DNA of 20,135 bases, taken from a virus. This document shows positions 1-13,479 of the stretch, piece by piece (the stretch's first letter is position 1; every line of letters starts with the position of its first letter). The stretch is from the IMG/VR virus record IMGVR_UViG_3300046756_000296, positions 1-20,135 of that record. One strand, given 5' to 3'. The notes beneath the pieces were generated by a model, which was not told the origin of the DNA, searched no databases, and saw only the letters and a program-made list of their open reading frames with translations. Position numbers and translations under genes: made by a program.

Positions 1-1291
1 AACACTTATCAAATAAACAGAATGATAGAGCATCCCACAATGATGATTTACCACTTGCATTTGGAGCGAAGATTCCATAAGCACCTTTCATTTGACTGAA
101 ATCTATTACATTATTTTCACCATATGAAAACATATTAGAGAACTCAAATGTTTTTGGTTTCCATATAATATTCTTCAGACCTGGTCGAGCTCCTAACTTA
201 TTGTTGATATCTTGATTAATACCACCAATAATCTCTAATTCTTCTTTACCAACCACATATCTATCCGATAGATAACCTTCTATAAGTTGGTTTTGAAATG
301 CGATATCTCTTACATTCTGAAGAACTATAGATGATGTTTGAGAACTATCCTTTGTATCAGCTAATACCTTCTGTATTGATACTTCTTGTACTTTTGTTTT
401 AGATTTTAACTCAGATAATATTTTTTTTAATTGAGATTGAGATGTATCTTTTGCTCTAATTCTCATTCGAGATTTGTTTGGTATCTTTGGATTACCAATT
501 ACCTTACCATCCTCAACATCAATGGTCACATACCCATAATCGTTGTGAATTGGAACGAATTCCGATTCTTTGGTTTGAACATCCCATACTAAGATTCCAT
601 GCTCAGGATACTTAGCTTCAGCATGATTCTGCATAATTGTAGAACCACAATACTTAATCGTACCCTCATCGTTTAGTGATTGATTTGGTACGTGAATATC
701 ACCTAATAGTACTAAATCGTATCCATCGAATGAATCTACTTTTACGTTTTTATTCTCTAATTGGAATCCGTATTCTGTTTTTACCTTATCGACAGGAGCA
801 TGATATAGAGCAATCTTATAATCACCATGTACCTCTTCAGATGGGATAATTTCCTTAGATTCCCCAAAAACCGATGAGTGTGAAAAGGAAATTCCACCCA
901 TCTTCCAAACTCCATCATCCTTCAGATAATGTAGATTAGGATGTCCTAATGCATTTACAATTGGTGATAACGCATCTAATCTATGTGGGTTATTTAAGTT
1001 AGCATCGTGGTTACCTGGTATCAAAATAGTTGGTAACATATCTGATAGAGATTTTAGAAATGTCTGTGTCATCTCTATAACCTCAGGAGTCATATCCGTT
1101 TTTGCGTGAACAATATCCCCACATAATACAATGATGGAATCATCTGTTTTTGTAGTGGAAATGTAATCATAAAGATGGGAAAACACTTCCCTATATTCTT
1201 TATGTCTTTTTAAATTTCTGATATGTACATCAGCTATGTGGTAAATCTTTTTGATTGTACCATCATACTTAATTCTCTTCGATTTTCTCAT
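1..1291 (-). CDS. SbcD-SbcC (gp47-gp46-like) fused recombination nuclease, partial
   Basis: Open reading frame of 430 codons with no stop, running off the left edge of the window. Residues ~14-250 are a calcineurin-like metallophosphoesterase of the SbcD/Mre11/T4 gp47 family: D21-x-H23, GD (58-59), GNHD (93-96), H164 and GDIH (197-200) are the expected metal-binding motifs. Residues ~250-345 would be the capping region, ending near the length of free-standing T4 gp47. Without a stop, residues ~376-430 then give the N-terminal head of an SbcC/Rad50/gp46 ATPase, with a YGENN-IDF strand and a Walker A A-P-N-A-S-G-K-S (409-416) followed by LWDALSFCLFDK. The first P-loop residue is Ala where Gly is usual. 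The family resects DNA ends during recombination-dependent replication. The start overlaps the primase stop as ATGA, implying translational coupling. I checked the frame codon by codon from the start to the edge. The ATPase coiled coil and C-terminal half lie outside the window. Confidence 0.88.
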   Translation of the reverse strand, partial: MRKSKRIKYDGTIKKIYHIADVHIRNLKRHKEYREVFSHLYDYISTTKTDDSIIVLCGDIVHAKTDMTPEVIEMTQTFLKSLSDMLPTILIPGNHDANLNNPHRLDALSPIVNALGHPNLHYLKDDGVWKMGGISFSHSSVFGESKEIIPSEEVHGDYKIALYHAPVDKVKTEYGFQLENKNVKVDSFDGYDLVLLGDIHVPNQSLNDEGTIKYCGSTIMQNHAEAKYPEHGILVWDVQTKESEFVPIHNDYGYVTIDVEDGKVIGNPKIPNKSRMRIRAKDTSQSQLKKILSELKSKTKVQEVSIQKVLADTKDSSQTSSIVLQNVRDIAFQNQLIEGYLSDRYVVGKEELEIIGGINQDINNKLGARPGLKNIIWKPKTFEFSNMFSYGENNVIDFSQMKGAYGIFAPNASGKSSLWDALSFCLFDKC

Positions 1292-2220
1292 ACACCTAAT
1301 AACTTATACTCCATTAACTTCCTTAGTGAAAGTAATTCGGTATTTTCTATCTTTTCATTAATATTTTTAAAACCCATATCTGATGGGTCTGAATCTTTTA
1401 GTTCAACGATGTGAACTCCCACTCCGTTATTCATAAGGGATTCTGCGAATCGGAGTGAGTTCTTAAAAGCATCTGAATCTAATGCTAGATATACACTTTT
1501 AACACCCTTACTAATTATTTTCTTTTGTAGTTCCGATTGTGGTGATTTACCAAACAATGGGATACTATTCATTCTAACTGCTATTGCATCAAATACTCCT
1601 TCACATATTACAATTGGTAAATCCCAATTAATAAACATCTCAAATCCCACCACATCTTTAGATACATCTGGATTCTTATGTTTAAATGTCGTATCGTAGA
1701 AACTTCTACCTACAAAATAATTTAACATACCATTCTCATCATACGATGGAACTATGATTTTATGTTTATACATACCCTCTTCACAATACCCCATTTGATA
1801 CTTTAAAATTTCCGAAGGTGATACCCCCCTTCTGTCAAGATAAGACAATGCGTGTTTTCTAATTACCGATGAGGATGGTTTCCACAATGGGATATATTCT
1901 TTAGGTAATTGAACTACCTTAGATTCTTCGGTAGTTGAATCTGTTTTGTATCTATACTTTCTACTGAATATGGAATTATGTTCATCCCAAATCTCCTTAG
2001 ATACTTTAAGTTTTCTAAATAGAGAACGAATTGATTTACCTTTCTCATCCGATATCCAACAATGCCAAGGGTTATCTGCATTAGAGTTTAACTTTATGTT
2101 TATCTCCAATTTAGGTTTATGATGATTCACAAATGGTGACCAAAAAGCATAGTTATCACCACTTGTTTTCTTAGATTTCCCTAAGACAGATTCTAGTAAA
2201 GAGAGTAGTCTTTCTTCCAT
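1288..2220 (-). CDS. DNA primase, T4 gp61/DnaG-type, with degenerate zinc ribbon
   Basis: Protein of 310 aa; T4 gp61 is about 342 aa. Residues ~20-70 occupy the place of the zinc-binding domain, with W-S-P-F-V-N-H-H at 27-34 and W-H-C-W-I-S at 52-57. Residues ~160-285 form a Toprim domain, with the acidic motif CEGVFDA (Glu plus Gly) and the metal-binding LDSDA, so the RNA-primer polymerase centre looks intact. The role would be primer synthesis for lagging-strand replication together with a replicative helicase that is not in the window. Three of the four zinc cysteines expected in this family are absent. No clear Shine-Dalgarno sequence precedes the ATG; the leader is a 30-bp AT-rich gap after endonuclease I. 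The stop overlaps the next start as ATGA. Its position between a resolvase and the SbcDC fusion supports a replication/recombination block. Confidence 0.85.
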   Translation of the reverse strand: MEERLLSLLESVLGKSKKTSGDNYAFWSPFVNHHKPKLEINIKLNSNADNPWHCWISDEKGKSIRSLFRKLKVSKEIWDEHNSIFSRKYRYKTDSTTEESKVVQLPKEYIPLWKPSSSVIRKHALSYLDRRGVSPSEILKYQMGYCEEGMYKHKIIVPSYDENGMLNYFVGRSFYDTTFKHKNPDVSKDVVGFEMFINWDLPIVICEGVFDAIAVRMNSIPLFGKSPQSELQKKIISKGVKSVYLALDSDAFKNSLRFAESLMNNGVGVHIVELKDSDPSDMGFKNINEKIENTELLSLRKLMEYKLLGV

Positions 2221-2250: not shown

Positions 2251-2676
2251 TTAACCAAAGAATTTTACTTTTTCTTTTTCATCTATCCATTCTTGTGGGA
2301 TTTCTTTTTTAGCCCATTTGAATCCGTTCTTTTCACACCATTGTGCATATGTGGTTTTAGAACCTTTGTATATTTTTCCATTTGGAGATTGTAGTACGAA
2401 CCTTAAATCCATATCAGGATTCTGTTCTTTTATTAATAAATGTTTCTTTCTATCTTCAGGTAAGAACCATCCTTTTGATTCTATAAAGATATTATTAGGT
2501 AATCTGAAGTCAGGTTTGTAAGAATGAGTAGTTGCTGGAATTGTATATGATACTTCATGCTCTTCATACTCACCATCAATACCTTGTGATTTAAGCTGCT
2601 CATCTATGCGGGTTTCCAATCCACTTTTATGTCCCTTCATCTTTTGGATGTGAGACCAGTTTCCTTTTTTATTCAT
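2251..2676 (-). CDS. T7 endonuclease I-like Holliday junction resolvase
   Basis: Protein of 141 aa, close to the 149 aa of T7 gp3. It is a PD-(D/E)xK nuclease of the phage endonuclease I family, which cleaves four-way and branched DNA before packaging. Visible catalytic residues are E21, D56 (in Y-K-P-D-F), E66 and K68 (in F-I-E-S-K-G). Their spacing equals that of T7 E20, D55, E65 and K67. The family tail is also present: DRKKHLLIKEQNP, then YKGS, YAQWCEKNG and IPQEW. The start at 2676 has only a weak ribosome binding site; ATG codons a little further in (for example before K-G-H-K) are possible alternatives, but residues upstream of E21 resemble the family N-terminus. It lies 12 nt after the LamG protein with no terminator between, so it may be read through from the tail genes. 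Confidence 0.93.
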   Translation of the reverse strand: MNKKGNWSHIQKMKGHKSGLETRIDEQLKSQGIDGEYEEHEVSYTIPATTHSYKPDFRLPNNIFIESKGWFLPEDRKKHLLIKEQNPDMDLRFVLQSPNGKIYKGSKTTYAQWCEKNGFKWAKKEIPQEWIDEKEKVKFFG

Positions 2677-5807: not shown

Positions 5808-6470
5808 TTATAATGTACCACCAATAGTGTTACCTACTGTAATATCTGGGTTGTTAGTTACTGATAGTGTAATTTCTTCTCTACCACCTGTTTCGTTTCC
5901 AACTATAATAACTCTAGTTGAAATATCTATGTTATCCGCCAATACTTTAGAAGTAATTGTGAATGTTTGATTTGTACTAATGGTTACACTTCTCTTATCT
6001 TCATTTGGTCCTACCGGGTCTGCATTATTTGCAATACCGTTTCCATCACCAATTATACTCGCGGCATCAGAGTTAATTAATGTTACAGTATATCCTAATG
6101 TTTCATTACCACCATTTTTAGTAGTTATCGTAACAACCTGATTGTTACCACCCTCTTCCAACGTTATAGCAGTTGGGTTTGGTAAAATCTGAGGAATACG
6201 GATTGTATTCTTCGGTAATGTTAATAGTTTGTACTTTAAAGAGTAACTTTCATCAGTTACTGCTTCAACAATCGGCATATTTTCAATAATGATTCCGTAG
6301 TAATCAGAACCGAGTGGATGTGCCGCATTCCACAATTCATAATCAACTTCATCATCTGCTAATGCAAACTGACTGATTACGAAAAAGTCTCTCCCTTTTG
6401 CCAACAGTTCTCTACCTTTTTTGGTAAGGATTGCATCTACTGTTATTGACGAATTATCTAAATATCCCAT
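5808..6470 (-). CDS. Conserved phage structural protein, MGYLDNSSITVDAILT-type N-terminus
   Basis: Protein of 220 aa. The N-terminal ~90 residues (start MGYLDNS, T-K-K-G-R-E-L-L-A, F-A-L-A-D-D-E-V-D-Y-E-L-W, H-P-L-G-S-D-Y-Y-G, I-E-N-M-P) form a block that I recall, without being able to search, as common to virion proteins of marine T4-like phages; its exact role is not known to me. Residues ~95-220 are Thr/Asn/Val-rich beta strands, possibly an Ig-like or other beta-sandwich domain (inference). The start is supported by AAAAAGG at 6480-6486. Upstream lies a 149-bp gap with repeated AT motifs, making this gene the likely head of a two-gene unit with the 362-aa gene. It could be a tail-completion or baseplate-connected protein. 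Confidence 0.75.
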   Translation of the reverse strand: MGYLDNSSITVDAILTKKGRELLAKGRDFFVISQFALADDEVDYELWNAAHPLGSDYYGIIIENMPIVEAVTDESYSLKYKLLTLPKNTIRIPQILPNPTAITLEEGGNNQVVTITTKNGGNETLGYTVTLINSDAASIIGDGNGIANNADPVGPNEDKRSVTISTNQTFTITSKVLADNIDISTRVIIVGNETGGREEITLSVTNNPDITVGNTIGGTL

Positions 6471-6479
6471 AATGTGTTA

Positions 6480-6486
6480 CCTTTTT
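6480..6486 (-). promoter_or_regulatory. Shine-Dalgarno of the 220-aa gene
   Basis: The minus strand reads AAAAAGG nine nucleotides before the ATG at 6470, and no alternative start lies nearby. Confidence 0.5.
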
Positions 6487-6503
6487 GTATTTTCTTTGTT
6501 CCC

Positions 6504-6514
6504 TTATAAATATG
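6504..6514. promoter_or_regulatory. TATAAATA-type motif upstream of the 220-aa gene
   Basis: The plus strand reads TTATAAATATG, containing the exact T4 late octamer TATAAATA at 6505-6512. The minus strand reads CATATTTATAA, ending about 34 nt before the 220-aa start. It matches the element at 4587-4597 in ten of eleven positions. A promoter or factor-binding role is inferred from recurrence and position; the active strand is unknown. Confidence 0.35.
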
Positions 6515-6572
6515 ATAAAAAATATTTTTAAGTTAATTTGACCTTTTAGTCTTATAATTTCTTTTCAACCAT

Positions 6573-6601
6573 TAATAAATATGAGGTTTCTAATAAATAT
6601 A
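6573..6601. repeat. Two further copies of the AT motif, 18 bp apart
   Basis: The plus strand has TAATAAATAT at 6573-6582 and again at 6591-6600, each followed by a purine-rich base pair (G or A). These differ from TATAAATA by one base. The 18-bp spacing places them about two helical turns apart, just after the stop of the 448-aa gene. They belong to the same family as the motifs at 6504-6514 and 4587-4597. The rest of the 6471-6619 gap is AT-rich and holds no gene and no convincing terminator. Confidence 0.4.
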
Positions 6602-6619
6602 GAATTTTATTTAAAAAAG

Positions 6620-7966
6620 TTAATTTCCTCTTCTAAATCTTTCAGAACCTCTTTTTCTTCTTTTAATAAAATCTTCTTCTGTTGGTGTACGTTTAGCTAA
6701 ACCACGTCTTATATTTACTAATTTATTTAATTTATTGTAATCTTTAAGAGGTTTATTGTCTTTAGGTACAATTATTAAAATATCATCTGGTTCTGTTTGA
6801 GCTTTTCTATCAAAATCAGATTCTTCACTTTCAACAATATCTCTATGTGGTACAATTTTTCTACCTAATTGTTTTTCAAATTTAGCGATTTCTCTACGTT
6901 TAGTTTGAACATCAGTTTCACCCCTAACATCAGGATTACGTTCCTGTTTCTCTTTCTGTTCTAATAATACATCACCTTCAAAAAAAGTTTGAACTTCTGA
7001 TTTTCTTAATCTATTTACTTTAAATTTAGTTTCCTCAGCTTTTCTTACTCTTTCATTCTTTAATCTTTCAATTTTTCTTTTTTGTAACTTAGCCTTTTCT
7101 TTTCTAATAACTTCTTTATCTTGTTGTATCTTTCGTCTATCTTTAATTCTCTGACTTTCGATTTCTTTTAATTCAGTTTCAGATGGTTTCTTTTTACCTG
7201 TAGTATTAATTTTACTAAACTCAGGATACTTTTCTTGCATTAATAACTGAAACTCTTTTTTTCTCTGAAGTATATCTGAATCAAATAATTCTCTTCTTTC
7301 AGTTTCATCTTCCAACGCATCATCTCTTTCACTTCTTCTTTCTTCTTCTATCTCTCTACGTTTAAGTTCTTCTTTTTCTAAACGGATTCGTTCTTCCTCA
7401 TCTTCTAATTCGGATGCCTTAACAACATCAACAGGTACTTCTTTTGTAACTACCTGCTCTTTATCTGTTATCTTATCAATTAAATCATCAGATGATGTTC
7501 TATCACTATCATCAATCTTATCAGTTCCAGTAATGTTTTGTGCAGTATCAACTTCCTTTTCTACTGTTTTGATTATATCATCAATTTCCTCTTCTGTTGT
7601 TTGAGGTTTTACAGGAGATAATGGTTTTGTATTTTCTTTTAAAGAATCTTTTAAAATTTCGTTTGTTGCATCAGAAACATTATCAATAGGTTTATCTATA
7701 CCTTTAGGAACATCTGTAGTTATAATTTCATTTAACGTTACATCCTCAACAAAATCACTACCCTTTGGCTCACTTACCTTAGATGGTTCAATTGGTTTAG
7801 TTTTACTAACTTCAGGCTCTTTTATAGCAGGTGGAAGTGGTGGTGAAACTCTTGGTGGAGTTACTACCGTTTCTTCCGTTACTGGTGGAGCTGGATTACG
7901 TGGTGGAACAGGTGGATTAACTCTACCTCTTCTACCTTTACCTTTACCTCTTCGTGTCTTAGCCAT
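6620..7966 (-). CDS. Pro-rich, highly charged coiled-coil-like protein of unknown function
   Basis: Protein of 448 aa with no enzyme domain that I recognise. Residues 1-15 are very basic (R-R-G-K-G-K-G-R-R-G-R). Residues ~17-63 are Pro-rich (P-P-V-P-P, V-T-P-P, P-P-L-P-P). Residues ~64-175 are acidic and Thr/Ser/Asp-rich, probably disordered. Residues ~180-345 have dense Glu/Lys/Arg with spaced hydrophobic residues, as in a long single helix or coiled coil. The C-terminus is basic (K-R-R-K-R-G-S-E-R-F-R-R-G). The start is a TAATG overlap with the stop of the 1837-aa gene, and AAGGAG at 7976-7981 supports it. The charged tail of the preceding protein has similar composition, so the two may interact, or one may derive from the other. 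Could be a virion-internal, linker or chaperone-like protein; position is the only guide. Confidence 0.7.
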   Translation of the reverse strand: MAKTRRGKGKGRRGRVNPPVPPRNPAPPVTEETVVTPPRVSPPLPPAIKEPEVSKTKPIEPSKVSEPKGSDFVEDVTLNEIITTDVPKGIDKPIDNVSDATNEILKDSLKENTKPLSPVKPQTTEEEIDDIIKTVEKEVDTAQNITGTDKIDDSDRTSSDDLIDKITDKEQVVTKEVPVDVVKASELEDEEERIRLEKEELKRREIEEERRSERDDALEDETERRELFDSDILQRKKEFQLLMQEKYPEFSKINTTGKKKPSETELKEIESQRIKDRRKIQQDKEVIRKEKAKLQKRKIERLKNERVRKAEETKFKVNRLRKSEVQTFFEGDVLLEQKEKQERNPDVRGETDVQTKRREIAKFEKQLGRKIVPHRDIVESEESDFDRKAQTEPDDILIIVPKDNKPLKDYNKLNKLVNIRRGLAKRTPTEEDFIKRRKRGSERFRRGN

Positions 7967-10900
7967 TAGTCACGTCTCCTTTTTGTTCTTCTATTTCGTT
8001 TCTCATTTTGTTTTTTACTTACTGGAATCTCTAATCGTCTTAACACCCTCTTATCGATTTCTTCTTCTTCTATAAAAGATTCTCTTTCTTCCATTGGAAG
8101 TTCGTTTAATTTTTGAATTAATTCAGAAGTTTGTTCTTTTTCAATTTCTTCTTTTCTCTCAACATTAATTGGTTGACCATCTAAGAATTTAACTTCTTCT
8201 GGTTCTTCTGGTTGAATGAATTTTTCTTCTTCTCGTACTTCTTTTTCTTCGATTTCTTTTTTAACAACAATTGGGTCGTTTACAACATCAAATTCATCTT
8301 GTCTTGCTGATTCTCTATTACTAATATCTTCTGAGTTTTGTAATCTTAAATCAAATTCAGCTCTTCGTGAGTTTTCTATTTGTTGTATTCTTGCAATTTC
8401 TCTACGGAACTTTTGAACTTCCGCTCTGTACTCCAATTCTCTTTGATATCTAATTTCTTCAGATATTTTTAAATCATCAACATTAATGGTAGCGATTCCT
8501 GTATTAGTATCTACATCTAAGTTTCCATCTTCAGCTGTTTGTGATGTATTGATTAGTACATTTGGGTCAGCTTCAAATATTTCTATTACAGGTTTACCAT
8601 CAGGAGTTTGTGTGGAATTTGTTGTCAATGAATCAGAACTCATCTTACAACCTAAATATCTTAAATTCTCAACTGCCAATGGTAGATTATCTGTTGATAC
8701 CTGTGATGGGGATAGAGATGATGAATATGATAATCCCATAGAAGCGGATACGGAAGAACTATAGAAGTAATTTGTAGTTCTTGCATATTGTGCATTTCGT
8801 TGGTTAATTATCGATGTTCCTAGTGGGTTGTAATTCCAACTACCATTTGAACCAGTAATCCAACCAACACCATATCCCACATCACCACCTTCTTTTGGTA
8901 TTAGTATATCAAACTTGTATGAAGATGGTTTATATGGAAGTTTTGCTCGAATTAATCCTCTTTCTTCTAAATCACTTTTTTCTACAAATATAGATTGAGT
9001 AACTCTAAATGATGTATTTAGTAAATAAAAATTACCATTTAAATCTTTTGGAGTAGACCATATATTTTGTTGGTCTTGTAACTGATATGTACCTGACATA
9101 CTTCTCTCAGTATCTACAACAATCGATGTTTTATGGGTTACATAATCTGCGGATTGTAGTAATGATTGTGTTAATGGAATTTCAGTATTGTGAGTTAAAT
9201 ATTCGGCTGATGAAGTAACATTTTGATTTAAATCAATTAATGTTTCATGTGTTAGATATTCGGCCGATTCTTTTATTGTATTTAAATCAAGTCGTAATCC
9301 ATACGTTAAGTATTCAGACTCAAAACTAGCAGTTGCTCTTGGTATGTATTTGCTTTTAAAATTATCGTAAGTAGGATATGTCATTATAAACTTAGGTGAT
9401 ACAGTACCACTTACTGTTGTGTTATAAGTAGGATACTCCATAAGAATATCAGGAGATGCCGTACCACTTATCGTTGTGTTATAAGTTGGAACAGTCCAAT
9501 CAGTTACGCTAGGTGAACCATATAATGATGCACTCAATGGAGTAATAAACATCTGTGGAACTTTATCTATAGGATTAACCGTAACCTCATACATAGGTTC
9601 GGTCTTAACAACTTTAACTTTAGATTTAACTTTAGGTCTTTCTAAGATATGTGGTTCAATTAAAATACCTGAGTTGTAATCAACCCTGGCTGGTACAGTT
9701 TGTCTAATCTGTTCAAATACAGAGAAATCATATCTTGCCAATATATCGATAGTACTATTGATTAAGTTCTTAGTACTATACTTTTTAAATACCTGTCTTC
9801 TTAAATAATCTAATTGTTCGTTTTGTTCTGTAAAACCTTCTCTACCATCTGGGTCTCCAATATAATCATCTATATCAAAATAACCTGTGTGGTTGTATAT
9901 ATCTTCATTGTACATTTTTGTAGCCGATAGATAAACACCTAATACATTGGAATCATTTGGAGCAGAATCAAACTTTGAAGTTTCTTTTCTTTCATCAACA
10001 TCTAACATTCCTCTTAATCTATTTGGCTCAACCCTTATCTTGTTGTTCATAATGTTGTTTGCTCCTGCCGATGGTACTTTTGTATGGTACTCTTCGGTTA
10101 CACCTCTTAAATCATCTGATTCAAAGTTGTGTAATGATGCGGATAATATCTGTCCATTTAATAGTGTGGATATTTTTTGATTAGGATGTTGTGATGGTTG
10201 TGAATCAGAAACATCTACACTCTTTAGTCTTGAATCAGGTAAAAATCTAAACTTTAAATCAAAGTAAGATGAGGTTTCTGAATTACCATGATATGATTCT
10301 CTTGCAAGAGTGTGTTCATCAATAACAATATCTTTTAATGGGTTTGCCCAATATCTTAATTCTTGTATAGAACCACTTAGATACTCAGTATTACCCCACA
10401 ATGATGGAGTATTATCTGTTGGGAAACTCTTACCTACAGTTAGTGTACCACTACCAGTCCACGCCGCGTTGTAAGATGGTTCGGTTGAACCTGTAATAAA
10501 GATACTTGCAGATTTATCTACAATAATATTATCTCTACGACTTCTACGGTAAATTAATTTATATTCATTATCTTGTGTAATATCATCTACTGATTTTTCT
10601 CTTTGAACAATCAATGTTCCCATCTTAGAATCAAATAAACTAACATTATTAATAGATGCTGATTTATAACCACTACTACCACTTAGGTAAAAATGTATAT
10701 TACCTTTCTTACCAGTTTTTGCGGTAGATAGAGATTCGTATAATACTCCGAAGTTTTTATCTTTATTTAAAACAGCAGTTGTTCTATTCTTATTTTGTTG
10801 AACTTGTAACTCAATCGTATCAATTGGGTTAGGGTCTCTGTTCAAATATGTGTTAGGGTCAATATCATTTACTTTATCAAATGGAACTTCCATATAATTA

Positions 10901-13479
10901 TCAGTATCAAATCTTAAATGATATACAAATCTTTCATGTTCCCAAAATTGTCGCTTATCTTCTATTACAGGCCCACCATATTCTCTGATTGATAAGAATG
11001 TTTGTGGAATACCATATGTAGATATTAATGCCTTTACAGCTCTAGCAGAACCTTTTGATTTAAGAAGATATGGTATATTGTTTACAATTCTTCTCCAAAT
11101 TTCATTTGTATATTGTTCTACTGGTTTGGCCGCCAATGAACCAGATTGTTGTGGGTTACCGTACTTATCTGTACCTAAAGCATAGCTCCAAAGTTCTTCC
11201 CTATCCTTACCATGTGTTAGTTTCCAACCCATTGATTTTGCCACATCATAAAGTAAGTTGTTCGGCATACCATCGTATGGATGTTCTTCTCTACTATTAA
11301 TAGATGTTAACTTTTTAACATACGCCCATGTGATATCAAAATGATGACCTATCATGTCAATAAACAATAAGTAATCAGCATTAAGTGTATCTTCACTTAT
11401 TGAAGCTGGTATTGTTTTGGTTAACCTTGCATCATTCATAGAATCAAAGTAACTAGCAGAATCAATTAACCCATTATAATGTGATATGGCCAATGATGAT
11501 GTTACAGAATATAAATTTACTGGTTGTGCACTATACTTCGGCCAAGGACTAATTGTAAATGCAGAAGAACTATAGTGTGTATATAGTGATGAAGATGGTT
11601 CGTTATACATCCAACGTTCCCATCCATCCATACCACTAACTACGTTATTTTTTCTTACTATAGATTGTGATATGTTTGTTAGTGCCTCAGTTCCACTTAC
11701 GGATTCTAAAGTTTTTATTCTACTTTCATACCCCTCTATCAATTCAACCTTATATTTAAAGTTATTTACTCTTTCTACTGCAGATGAATAATGTACAAAT
11801 TCTGAAAAGTCAGAATAGTTTACATTTATATTATTTTCAAATGATGAACTTATGTATTTATCTACTATCTGTTGAGATGTTGATAGGTTTGTATCTAATA
11901 AATCATTCCAACTTCTTAAATCAGTACCTACAGACTTACCATAAGTACCCATATCAATTTTAAAGTTAGGTTCGGAAAAGTTATCTTCTACTAATTTTTT
12001 AGAGGTTGGATATACTAATAGTTTTTCTATGTAAGAATCTCTTACTAGTCTCTCAATACGTGGTGTTTTGTTTTGTAAATCACCTCTTAATGGTTTGTAC
12101 AATTTTACTGTAACCGTATTAAGTTTTACATCTGGTTCTTCCTCTGTACCAGTGTTCTTAAAATTTGGATTATTATATTGTACTTCAGATGATATAGGAA
12201 CTCCTCTAAGTAATTTAGTGTAATCAGAATTAGGTCTTATTGGAAATCCCTTATCGTCATTACCAAATTCAAAATATTGTTGTTCTAATTTATCAAAAAC
12301 AGGTATCCATTTTAATTCTTCGTTATCATTAAAATCTAATACAAATTTTGAACCCCTACCTGTAGTTCTAAATTTTTTACTTATTTTCTGTGGTGAGATT
12401 GATACAAGTAATCTATCATTTAGACTATCTTTAAAAGAGGCTCTCTTATCTGAACCTTTATTTAAAATCGCACCATCTGAAACTATAGAAGGGTCTTTTA
12501 CCTGTGGATTTTTAATAATTTTAGATGTCTTGTTCGATACTTCTGTATTTGTAACATTTGTTTTACTACTACCAGCTACTGATTTTGTAGATGTTTTTGA
12601 GGTTTTTCCAAGAGCAGCATCCATAATTGCCTTACCAGCATCGGTTTGTAAAGCTTTCCCTAAATCACTATCATCAGTTGGTTTGAGTGGATTATCAAAC
12701 GATACTATACTTGGTGTTTGATTTGCATCTTCTACCTCTTCTACTATAATAGCACCTTCTACTTCAGAAATTTCTTCATCATCTATATATACTTCACACC
12801 AATACCCATCTAAATTTTGCATTGGATAGAATCTAGTTCTAATATTCTGATATTTATCTGTTGGGAAATCAACTTCTTCTAACTGATACCCTTCTCTTTC
12901 ATTTAAACTAAAATCAAACTGTGTAATTGCAGCTAAATCATTGTTTCCAAAATTTAAAACATACTGAATGTGTTCTGTATTACCATCTCTAAGTTCGGGT
13001 AACCCTAACCCATCTGAATATAGATTTTCGATTGCCTTCAACCCTTCGTAAGAGTCTACAGTACCATCTTTTTCGGAATCAATTACTAATTGTAATTCAC
13101 TCGCATCTGCAGATATATTTTCTATTTTTAACTTATCTGTTTGTTTATCTAAGAAATTGTAAACTACAGAAAAATTACCTTTTGATATATTTGATTGTCT
13201 TACATCTTTTTCAGGTGTTAGTAAAATATCATACGGTTGGCTGTTGTTACTATCAGCTTTGGTGTTTATTTCATATCTAAGTGATTTATCATTAGATTTT
13301 AATAGATTTTCACCTGAGTATATGTGATATTCTTGAGCTATTTGTAAATCACCCTCTTTTAAATCCGTTTGTATAGATTCAATTCTCTCTAAATCTTCAA
13401 TAGAATATATAGCAGGAGCATCTACTGGAGATTTGGATGTTACTACATCAGTTCCTTTTATGTAAATATCTAATGCCAT
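7966..13479 (-). CDS. Giant baseplate/tail-fibre-connecting protein (P2 gpI-like segment, LamG domain, tandem repeats)
   Basis: Protein of 1837 aa. Residues 1-250 are beta-rich and unrecognised; ~255-350 is a Ser/Thr/Lys linker. Residues ~700-840 (helical FIDMIGHHFDITWAYVK, then NNIPYLLKSKGSARAVKALI and STYGIP...IREYGGP) resemble baseplate tail proteins of the P2 gpI type, which attach fibres. Residues ~848-1085 fit a LamG-like jellyroll closing in LSGSIQELRYWANPLKD. Residues 1330-1463 hold seven ~19-residue repeats. Residues ~1665-1837 are a charged, coiled-coil-like tail ending in a basic cluster. No membrane segment is seen. The position two genes after gp6 is where T4 has gp7 (1032 aa), the long wedge protein, so a wedge-plus-fibre-anchor role is inferred, not shown. 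The start is a TAATG overlap supported by GGGAG at 13489-13493. Confidence 0.78.
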   Translation of the reverse strand: MALDIYIKGTDVVTSKSPVDAPAIYSIEDLERIESIQTDLKEGDLQIAQEYHIYSGENLLKSNDKSLRYEINTKADSNNSQPYDILLTPEKDVRQSNISKGNFSVVYNFLDKQTDKLKIENISADASELQLVIDSEKDGTVDSYEGLKAIENLYSDGLGLPELRDGNTEHIQYVLNFGNNDLAAITQFDFSLNEREGYQLEEVDFPTDKYQNIRTRFYPMQNLDGYWCEVYIDDEEISEVEGAIIVEEVEDANQTPSIVSFDNPLKPTDDSDLGKALQTDAGKAIMDAALGKTSKTSTKSVAGSSKTNVTNTEVSNKTSKIIKNPQVKDPSIVSDGAILNKGSDKRASFKDSLNDRLLVSISPQKISKKFRTTGRGSKFVLDFNDNEELKWIPVFDKLEQQYFEFGNDDKGFPIRPNSDYTKLLRGVPISSEVQYNNPNFKNTGTEEEPDVKLNTVTVKLYKPLRGDLQNKTPRIERLVRDSYIEKLLVYPTSKKLVEDNFSEPNFKIDMGTYGKSVGTDLRSWNDLLDTNLSTSQQIVDKYISSSFENNINVNYSDFSEFVHYSSAVERVNNFKYKVELIEGYESRIKTLESVSGTEALTNISQSIVRKNNVVSGMDGWERWMYNEPSSSLYTHYSSSAFTISPWPKYSAQPVNLYSVTSSLAISHYNGLIDSASYFDSMNDARLTKTIPASISEDTLNADYLLFIDMIGHHFDITWAYVKKLTSINSREEHPYDGMPNNLLYDVAKSMGWKLTHGKDREELWSYALGTDKYGNPQQSGSLAAKPVEQYTNEIWRRIVNNIPYLLKSKGSARAVKALISTYGIPQTFLSIREYGGPVIEDKRQFWEHERFVYHLRFDTDNYMEVPFDKVNDIDPNTYLNRDPNPIDTIELQVQQNKNRTTAVLNKDKNFGVLYESLSTAKTGKKGNIHFYLSGSSGYKSASINNVSLFDSKMGTLIVQREKSVDDITQDNEYKLIYRRSRRDNIIVDKSASIFITGSTEPSYNAAWTGSGTLTVGKSFPTDNTPSLWGNTEYLSGSIQELRYWANPLKDIVIDEHTLARESYHGNSETSSYFDLKFRFLPDSRLKSVDVSDSQPSQHPNQKISTLLNGQILSASLHNFESDDLRGVTEEYHTKVPSAGANNIMNNKIRVEPNRLRGMLDVDERKETSKFDSAPNDSNVLGVYLSATKMYNEDIYNHTGYFDIDDYIGDPDGREGFTEQNEQLDYLRRQVFKKYSTKNLINSTIDILARYDFSVFEQIRQTVPARVDYNSGILIEPHILERPKVKSKVKVVKTEPMYEVTVNPIDKVPQMFITPLSASLYGSPSVTDWTVPTYNTTISGTASPDILMEYPTYNTTVSGTVSPKFIMTYPTYDNFKSKYIPRATASFESEYLTYGLRLDLNTIKESAEYLTHETLIDLNQNVTSSAEYLTHNTEIPLTQSLLQSADYVTHKTSIVVDTERSMSGTYQLQDQQNIWSTPKDLNGNFYLLNTSFRVTQSIFVEKSDLEERGLIRAKLPYKPSSYKFDILIPKEGGDVGYGVGWITGSNGSWNYNPLGTSIINQRNAQYARTTNYFYSSSVSASMGLSYSSSLSPSQVSTDNLPLAVENLRYLGCKMSSDSLTTNSTQTPDGKPVIEIFEADPNVLINTSQTAEDGNLDVDTNTGIATINVDDLKISEEIRYQRELEYRAEVQKFRREIARIQQIENSRRAEFDLRLQNSEDISNRESARQDEFDVVNDPIVVKKEIEEKEVREEEKFIQPEEPEEVKFLDGQPINVERKEEIEKEQTSELIQKLNELPMEERESFIEEEEIDKRVLRRLEIPVSKKQNEKRNRRTKRRRD
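7976..7981 (-). promoter_or_regulatory. Shine-Dalgarno of the 448-aa gene inside the 1837-aa gene
   Basis: The minus strand reads AAGGAG nine nucleotides before the ATG at 7966, inside the last codons of the 1837-aa gene. With the TAATG overlap it allows both new initiation and termination-reinitiation. Confidence 0.65.
9091..9492 (-). repeat. Coding tandem repeats, seven units of about 57 bp (19 aa)
   Basis: Residues 1330-1463 of the 1837-aa protein divide into seven units starting at residues 1330, 1349, 1368, 1389, 1407, 1426 and 1445, with lengths 19, 19, 21, 18, 19, 19 and 19. The first units begin V/Y-P-T-Y (N-T-T-x-S-G-T-x-S-P in units 1 and 2); the later ones begin E/D-Y-L/V-T-H/Y with alternating hydrophobic residues. 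Units 1 and 2 are also similar at DNA level with an exact 57-bp period. Such repeats suggest an elongated beta-structured shaft. Confidence 0.8.

Follow-up and report, generated by a model that had tools for sequence, protein, structure and literature searches.

The window, by which we mean the whole stretch of 20,135 bases analysed here from an IMG/VR virus record, carries at its left end a minus-strand frame of 430 codons without a stop, the 3' end of which is open at the end of the contig. A Pfam search of this one frame returns both Metallophos at residues 15-202 (E 1.2e-11) and AAA_23 at residues 385-429 (E 1.2e-7), while the PHROG matches are to SbcD (phrog_100) on its first half and to SbcC (phrog_77) on its second. 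The first-pass annotation had claimed a single uninterrupted frame running from SbcD into SbcC and, with both domains found in the same frame by Pfam and PHROG, the observation is confirmed. The residues it had named for the metallophosphoesterase motifs (D21, H23, G58-D59, GNHD at 93-96, H164 and GDIH at 197-200) are those found in the translation and alignments, its Rad50-type Walker A (GKS, 414-416) is present as part of APNASGKS, and the short linker that it placed between nuclease and ATPase comes to about 10 residues in the predicted model. The features of the locus are collected in Table 1.

Table 1. Features of the fused SbcD-SbcC gene and its upstream neighbours in the window.
Feature	Position	Strand	Basis
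SbcD-SbcC (Mre11-Rad50) fusion gene, first 430 of about 1,056 codons	2..1291	-	Pfam, PHROG; full protein in contig L029
Calcineurin-like metallophosphoesterase (nuclease) domain, residues 15-202	686..1249	-	Pfam Metallophos; model match to 7dog_A
Motif V GDIH, residues 197-200	692..703	-	Alignment to 1ii7; motif tables
Mre11-type capping domain, about residues 203-309 (limits approximate)	365..685	-	Model matches to SbcD nuclease and capping domain, 13..308
Two helices, residues 330-344 and 349-365, at the place of the Rad50-coiled-coil-binding helix-loop-helix of Mre11	197..304	-	Models; 3tho_B alignment over 14..369
Linker of about 10 residues, 366-375	167..196	-	Full-length model: helix to 365, first Rad50 strand 376-385
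Start of Rad50/SbcC ATPase head, residues 376-430	2..166	-	Pfam AAA_23; full model against 7yzo_D from residue 377
Walker A APNASGKS, residues 409-416, with Ala in place of the usual first Gly	44..67	-	Translation, alignments
DnaG-type primase of the SPO1 gp21.95 kind	1288..2220	-	PHROG, relation to gp21.95; stop overlaps fusion start
T7-type endonuclease I	2251..2676	-	Pfam Phage_endo_I, E 6.4e-54

The part of the gene lying beyond the window is available from a contig of another metagenome (L029), which is 99.97% identical to the window with 2 mismatches in 7,291 bases. A second metagenome contig (L002) has 4 mismatches in 4,692 bases, and both contigs cross the junction of the two halves ungapped. 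The whole fusion gene in L029 spans 6001-9168 and encodes a protein of 1,056 residues. The leftward extension for which the first-pass annotation had called is thereby supplied, with the coiled coil, a CxxC zinc hook (the single CxxC of the protein, residues 728-731) and the C-terminal ATPase lobe; the end soon after the Walker A that would have refuted its reading is absent, as the frame continues through the full length. What we take to be the C-terminal motifs are a signature TSGME (966-970), a Walker B ending in DE (997-998), a D-loop LD (1003-1004) and an H-loop H1030.

Structural modelling gave a mean pLDDT of 78.7 and a pTM of 0.46 for the full protein, and 76.6 and 0.70 for the part in the window, in which residues 369-430 are poorly modelled. 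In the full model, the head resembles E. coli SbcC (7yzo_D) from residue 377 on (Z 29.3, rmsd 3.8, 350 aligned), and the nuclease model matches S. aureus SbcD (7dog_A) over the span 13..308 (Z 24.9, rmsd 3.4, 274 aligned); T. maritima Mre11 (3tho_B) aligns to the model over 14..369 with a high rmsd of 8.4. The solved structures related by sequence are distant matches. The predicted models contain a capping domain and a helix-loop-helix of the SbcD/Mre11 type, and the metallophosphoesterase fold has all five SbcD/Mre11 motifs, except that the first His of motif V is Asp. As judged from the translation and these predictions, one and the same frame is shown to encode the nuclease and capping domain, the helices for Rad50 binding, the short linker, and the split ATPase head together with its coiled coil and zinc hook.

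Since the window is a contig from a metagenome, the end of which truncates the gene, it could be argued that the fusion is an artefact of assembly or sequencing, arising from a missed stop or a frameshift between two ordinary genes. In a search of viral contigs for the two-domain architecture, as the first-pass annotation had suggested, a relative was encoded in 217 of 219 candidate stretches. The best 80 of these 217 were kept as a first set of 79 loci; a second set comprises the best 80 of at least 588 relatives found with the nuclease half alone as the query, so that an unfused SbcD could have been found. No stop occurs in the matched stretch in any of the 79 or the 80 loci, these being the best matches of the larger sets. 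The frame reaches its stop in 53 loci of the first set, at lengths of 1,046 to 1,057 residues except for one begun inside the gene (961), and runs off the contig in the remaining 26; in the second set 59 loci reach a stop, one at residue 747 and the others at 1,033 to 1,073, and 21 leave the contig. The single early stop (L167) lies near the hook, after which the protein continues in another frame; it is one locus of 159, a number in which the two sets share at least one contig (L018 and L115). No lone SbcD ending was seen among the best 80 of the at least 588 relatives of the nuclease half. Given these related loci, the ungapped agreement of two near-identical contigs over the junction and an isolate, Microcystis phage Mel-JY01, that carries the fusion as one annotated gene, the artefact is rejected, and we leave it practically no probability.

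No plasmid relative close to the phage kind was found: 33 plasmid records match the ATPase part only, none over 80% of the query, and no match listed for the nuclease part was better than E 0.02. A short-pattern scan of cellular genomes returned at least three loci, all in metagenome-assembled genomes. Two loci, L091 and L092, carry the same fusion with a primase-size ORF overlapping its start on contigs binned with Candidatus Nitrosopelagicus and with a Chloroflexi genome; these are probably phage contigs in these bins, or else a hint of the host. In the 484-kb phage LR756508 (4950-9175 of the locus), an insert carrying a 305-aa ORF that matches a TnsA-like endonuclease interrupts the fusion gene just behind the GDIH motif, and no match to a group I intron near the gathering score of any family was found in the insert.

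Upstream of the fusion, on the same strand, the primase is present in each of the 153 loci where this side extends for 1.3 kb or more, and in 146 of them it is no more than 200 bases away; endonuclease I lies upstream in 114 of the 134 loci with at least 2.2 kb; the overlap of primase stop and fusion start in the window is an ATGA at 1288-1291. The window also encodes baseplate proteins of the gp25 and gp6 types, the latter closest to those of Mel-JY01 (50%), Immutovirus (42%) and LR756508 (38%), and the annotation of Mel-JY01 includes RecA, a gp41-type helicase, a family B polymerase and a clamp loader. The setting of the fusion is a virus of bacteria, among T4-like myoviruses akin to Mel-JY01. 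A Shine-Dalgarno-like word precedes the fusion start in only 3 of 142 loci, perhaps a sign of a host, for example one of the Bacteroidota, in which this signal is seldom used. A 1,837-aa protein (7966-13479) with no PHROG match at E 0.01 is encoded among the baseplate or tail genes of the window, and no tRNA or Rfam family was found in the window.

The fusion is the sole AAA_23 protein in eight of eight long records (the complete Mel-JY01 genome and seven fragments), a count to be read with the fact that the AAA_23 search can miss, as phage pT24 has a fusion without such a match, and that the genomes represented by fragments may have a separate SbcC elsewhere; two of the eight have one extra small phosphoesterase. 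Immutovirus, a phage related by its baseplate protein and primase, has neither an AAA_23 protein nor a tblastn match to the fusion, which implies that the function of the fusion is not indispensable in that lineage. Beside the primase of Immutovirus (L086, 7369-8148), at the usual place of the fusion, lies a PD-(D/E)XK-type nuclease with a match just under the Pfam cut-off, and this putative exonuclease perhaps replaces the fusion.

Fused Mre11/Rad50 proteins have been on record since 2011, when Mimivirus R555 was described with twelve others; besides R555, the sources reported comprised a Bacillus phage, plasmids, bacteria, eukaryotes and marine scaffolds (PMC3175470). R555 and its homologs on marine GOS scaffolds formed one group there, and some of these scaffolds carried T7-type endonucleases and phage primases whose best matches included SPO1 gp21.95 (PMC3175470). 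The present protein resembles R555 and the GOS homologs in having the same domain order in one chain and an Asp at the position of Mre11 His206, and the window resembles the scaffolds in its gp21.95-type primase and T7-type endonuclease (PMC3175470); it looks like one of these scaffolds read further. The GOS sequences of 2011 are incomplete, unlike the fusion in L029, while R555, compared here by its published description, belongs to a virus of amoebae and is longer (1,351 aa), with a longer coiled coil.

The closest isolate is Mel-JY01, whose 1,066-aa fusion (WWT39521.1, 'AAA domain containing protein') is about 44% identical to the part in the window and has a primase nearby, although a 174-bp gene separates the two and a GIY-YIG-type gene replaces endonuclease I. 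Single frames of 1,202-1,326 aa with both halves occur in the Tenacibaculum phages pT24 and PTm1, Chryseobacterium phage MA9V-1, Sphingomonas phage PAU and the 735-kb phage LR756501; in the nuclease tree all five fall together with fusions of the window's kind, but they differ in a longer coiled coil, an identity of 23-27% and, in PAU, a His kept at motif V; no primase was noted beside these fusions in the stretches examined. In nearly all near relatives the first residue of the Walker A is Ala (AxNxxGKS), while these five keep Gly. The isolate fusions (Mel-JY01, pT24, PTm1, MA9V-1 and PAU) are annotated merely as AAA, metallo-phosphoesterase or DNA repair proteins, and PTm5 and MA9V-2 are among the matches of the same search. 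A review describes SbcC and SbcD as nearly universal in jumbo phages (PMC7824862).

Among unfused systems, T4 gp47/gp46 are a homologous nuclease and ATPase and likely do the same job, but are separate proteins, whose genes have 46.1 and 46.2 lying between, and motif V has His. In SPO1, the SbcC gp21.9 adjoins the primase gp21.95, of the same family as the window's primase, but it is unfused, lies five genes apart from the SbcD gp21.3, and motif V again has His. A plasmid of Deferribacter desulfuricans likewise encodes both halves in a single chain of about 1,200 aa, but that fusion has retained the motif V His and is placed with the unfused pairs.

Unrooted trees were built separately for the nuclease halves and the ATPase heads, with 31 and then 58 proteins. 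In both, a branch separates all the phage-type fusions from the nine unfused pairs, with support of 100/98 (nuclease) and 95/86 (ATPase) when 22 fusions were included, and of 99/96 and 94/87 with 48, the last just under the program's mark. The sample took in 17 of the 52 complete first-set proteins as representatives at 85% identity, a hand-picked 23 of the 59 stop-ending ORFs of the second set and only nine unfused pairs; it omitted the split LR756508 gene, L093, PTm5 and MA9V-2. A single origin of the phage-type fusions is favoured rather than shown, since the trees are unrooted, the unfused proteins few, and the program warned that several long branches meet; the 2011 report favoured several fusion events (PMC3175470). 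The position of the Deferribacter fusion among unfused proteins in both trees, together with its His, indicates an independent fusion. The first-pass interpretation was right as to a single-chain SbcD-SbcC fusion. Its proposed route, in which the stop separating genes 47 and 46 of a T4-type pair was lost, is unsupported: two small genes separate the pair in T4, both trees place the fusions away from the pairs of the T4 and SPO1 types and of E. coli, and the fusion has as its neighbours a primase of the SPO1 kind and an endonuclease of the T7 kind. A recent origin from a T4-type gene pair is likewise unsupported by T4 gene order and by the trees.

A peculiarity of the phage protein lies at its metal site. 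Asp198 of the window aligns to His206 of P. furiosus Mre11 (counted on the alignment to 1ii7), which we take to be a ligand of the second manganese. Motif V reads GDxH in 47 of 48 phage-type fused proteins, the exception being phage PAU (GHIH), and GHxH in all nine unfused SbcD proteins (T4, KVP40, S-PM2, P-SSM2, HTVC008M, SPO1, A511, Twort and E. coli); the Deferribacter plasmid fusion has GHYH. The simple pattern GDIH was found in 78 of 79 loci of the first set, the miss (L030) beginning inside the gene, and in 80 of 80 of the second. That the His typical of SbcD/Mre11 is absent gives no ground for excluding the protein from this family, because R555 also has an Asp, Asp242, at the position (PMC3175470). 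The residues D21, D59, N94, H95, H164 and H200 are kept in 48 of 48 fused proteins, and motif I is DxQ instead of DxH (Gln for His23) in 8 of the 48. As Asp replaces His206 at the second metal site, the metal preference or activity of the nuclease may differ, and the Asp together with the Gln in those eight could mean a changed or reduced nuclease. Fusion itself as the strict cause of the His-to-Asp change is rejected, since the Deferribacter fusion and phage PAU keep His.

Taken together, sequence and models make it probable that the gene encodes a complete single-chain Mre11-Rad50 (SbcD-SbcC, gp47-gp46) machine of a T4-like myovirus, for the processing of DNA ends in recombination. By analogy with T4 gp46/gp47, its function would most likely be ATP-gated processing and tethering of DNA ends for recombination-dependent replication. 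Two chains would pair via their heads and hooks, the heads would close over DNA on ATP binding, and ATP hydrolysis would give the nuclease access to the DNA end; the trimmed end could then start strand invasion by a RecA-type recombinase of the phage, as with T4 gp46/gp47 and UvsX. Fusion is predicted to fix a 1:1 stoichiometry and to tether the nuclease to the head, as follows from the architecture. The linker appears to be about as long as is needed to join Mre11 and Rad50 with docking unaltered: the argument made for the earlier fusions was a distance of 28 angstrom, spanned by 9-12 residues after the helix-loop-helix (PMC3175470), and the linker of the predicted model falls within this range. 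The fusion would be the only SbcC of the phage and, given the overlap of primase stop and fusion start, is probably translated together with the primase, the two being made side by side.

Other readings of the function have to be weighed against this. T7 endonuclease I degrades host DNA, an endonuclease I gene adjoins the fusion, and T4 gp46/gp47 are annotated as needed for host-DNA degradation as well as recombination, so breakdown of host DNA could be the main job in place of recombination-dependent replication; yet the fusion is coupled to a primase, the lineage has a RecA-type recombinase and the two jobs are compatible, and we regard this as unlikely. The Asp shared by nearly all phage-type fusions and R555 could also mean that Asp198 impairs the nuclease half, which would then act mainly in regulation or as a DNA-binding cap, with the tethering of ends left to the ATPase half. 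Such a loss seems improbable, as Asp is able to bind metal itself, D21, D59, N94, H95, H164 and H200 are intact in all 48 fused proteins, and a dead site would be expected to decay further. More improbable still is that an internal start or cleavage of the linker yields a free SbcC beside the fusion, the working enzyme being a mixed complex. Met387, just past the linker, is indeed invariant in 18 and 19 aligned proteins, but a start there would lose the first strand of the head (376-385), and none of 142 loci has a Shine-Dalgarno-like word before it, a weak point given how few have one before the true start.

Overall, the protein is a real and complete member of the viral Mre11/Rad50 fusions, a kind known since 2011; such a fusion is not unusual, as the same architecture is widespread among the candidate viral stretches and was published in that year (PMC3175470). 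What is new is the full anatomy of the phage protein, its setting, the way in which the phage fusions group together, and Asp as a marker at the metal site. In the open-access literature after 2011, no description of a fused phage SbcDC family or its Asp marker was found, and no open-access paper naming Mel-JY01 was found.

Mre11-Rad50 is a universal machine for DNA ends, the study of which needs two parts mixed at the right ratio. A natural single chain of about 1,056 residues, less than E. coli SbcC and SbcD summed, fixes this ratio and could possibly be handy for structural and single-molecule work, and the near-fixed change from His to Asp offers a direct way to test the role of the second metal. 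The R555-like sequences found in abundance in marine data, a puzzle in 2011, also gain a home, in T4-like phages with an SPO1-type primase. It is conceivable, though we lean somewhat against it, that the viral single-chain proteins of marine and freshwater phages and Bacteroidetes jumbo phages, with R555 included by its shared Asp, constitute one ancient, ever-fused lineage with a re-tuned second metal site. If so, fused and unfused forms would be two distinct types of Mre11-Rad50 and not one complex with a lost stop, and fusions in cells, that of Deferribacter among them, would have arisen separately.
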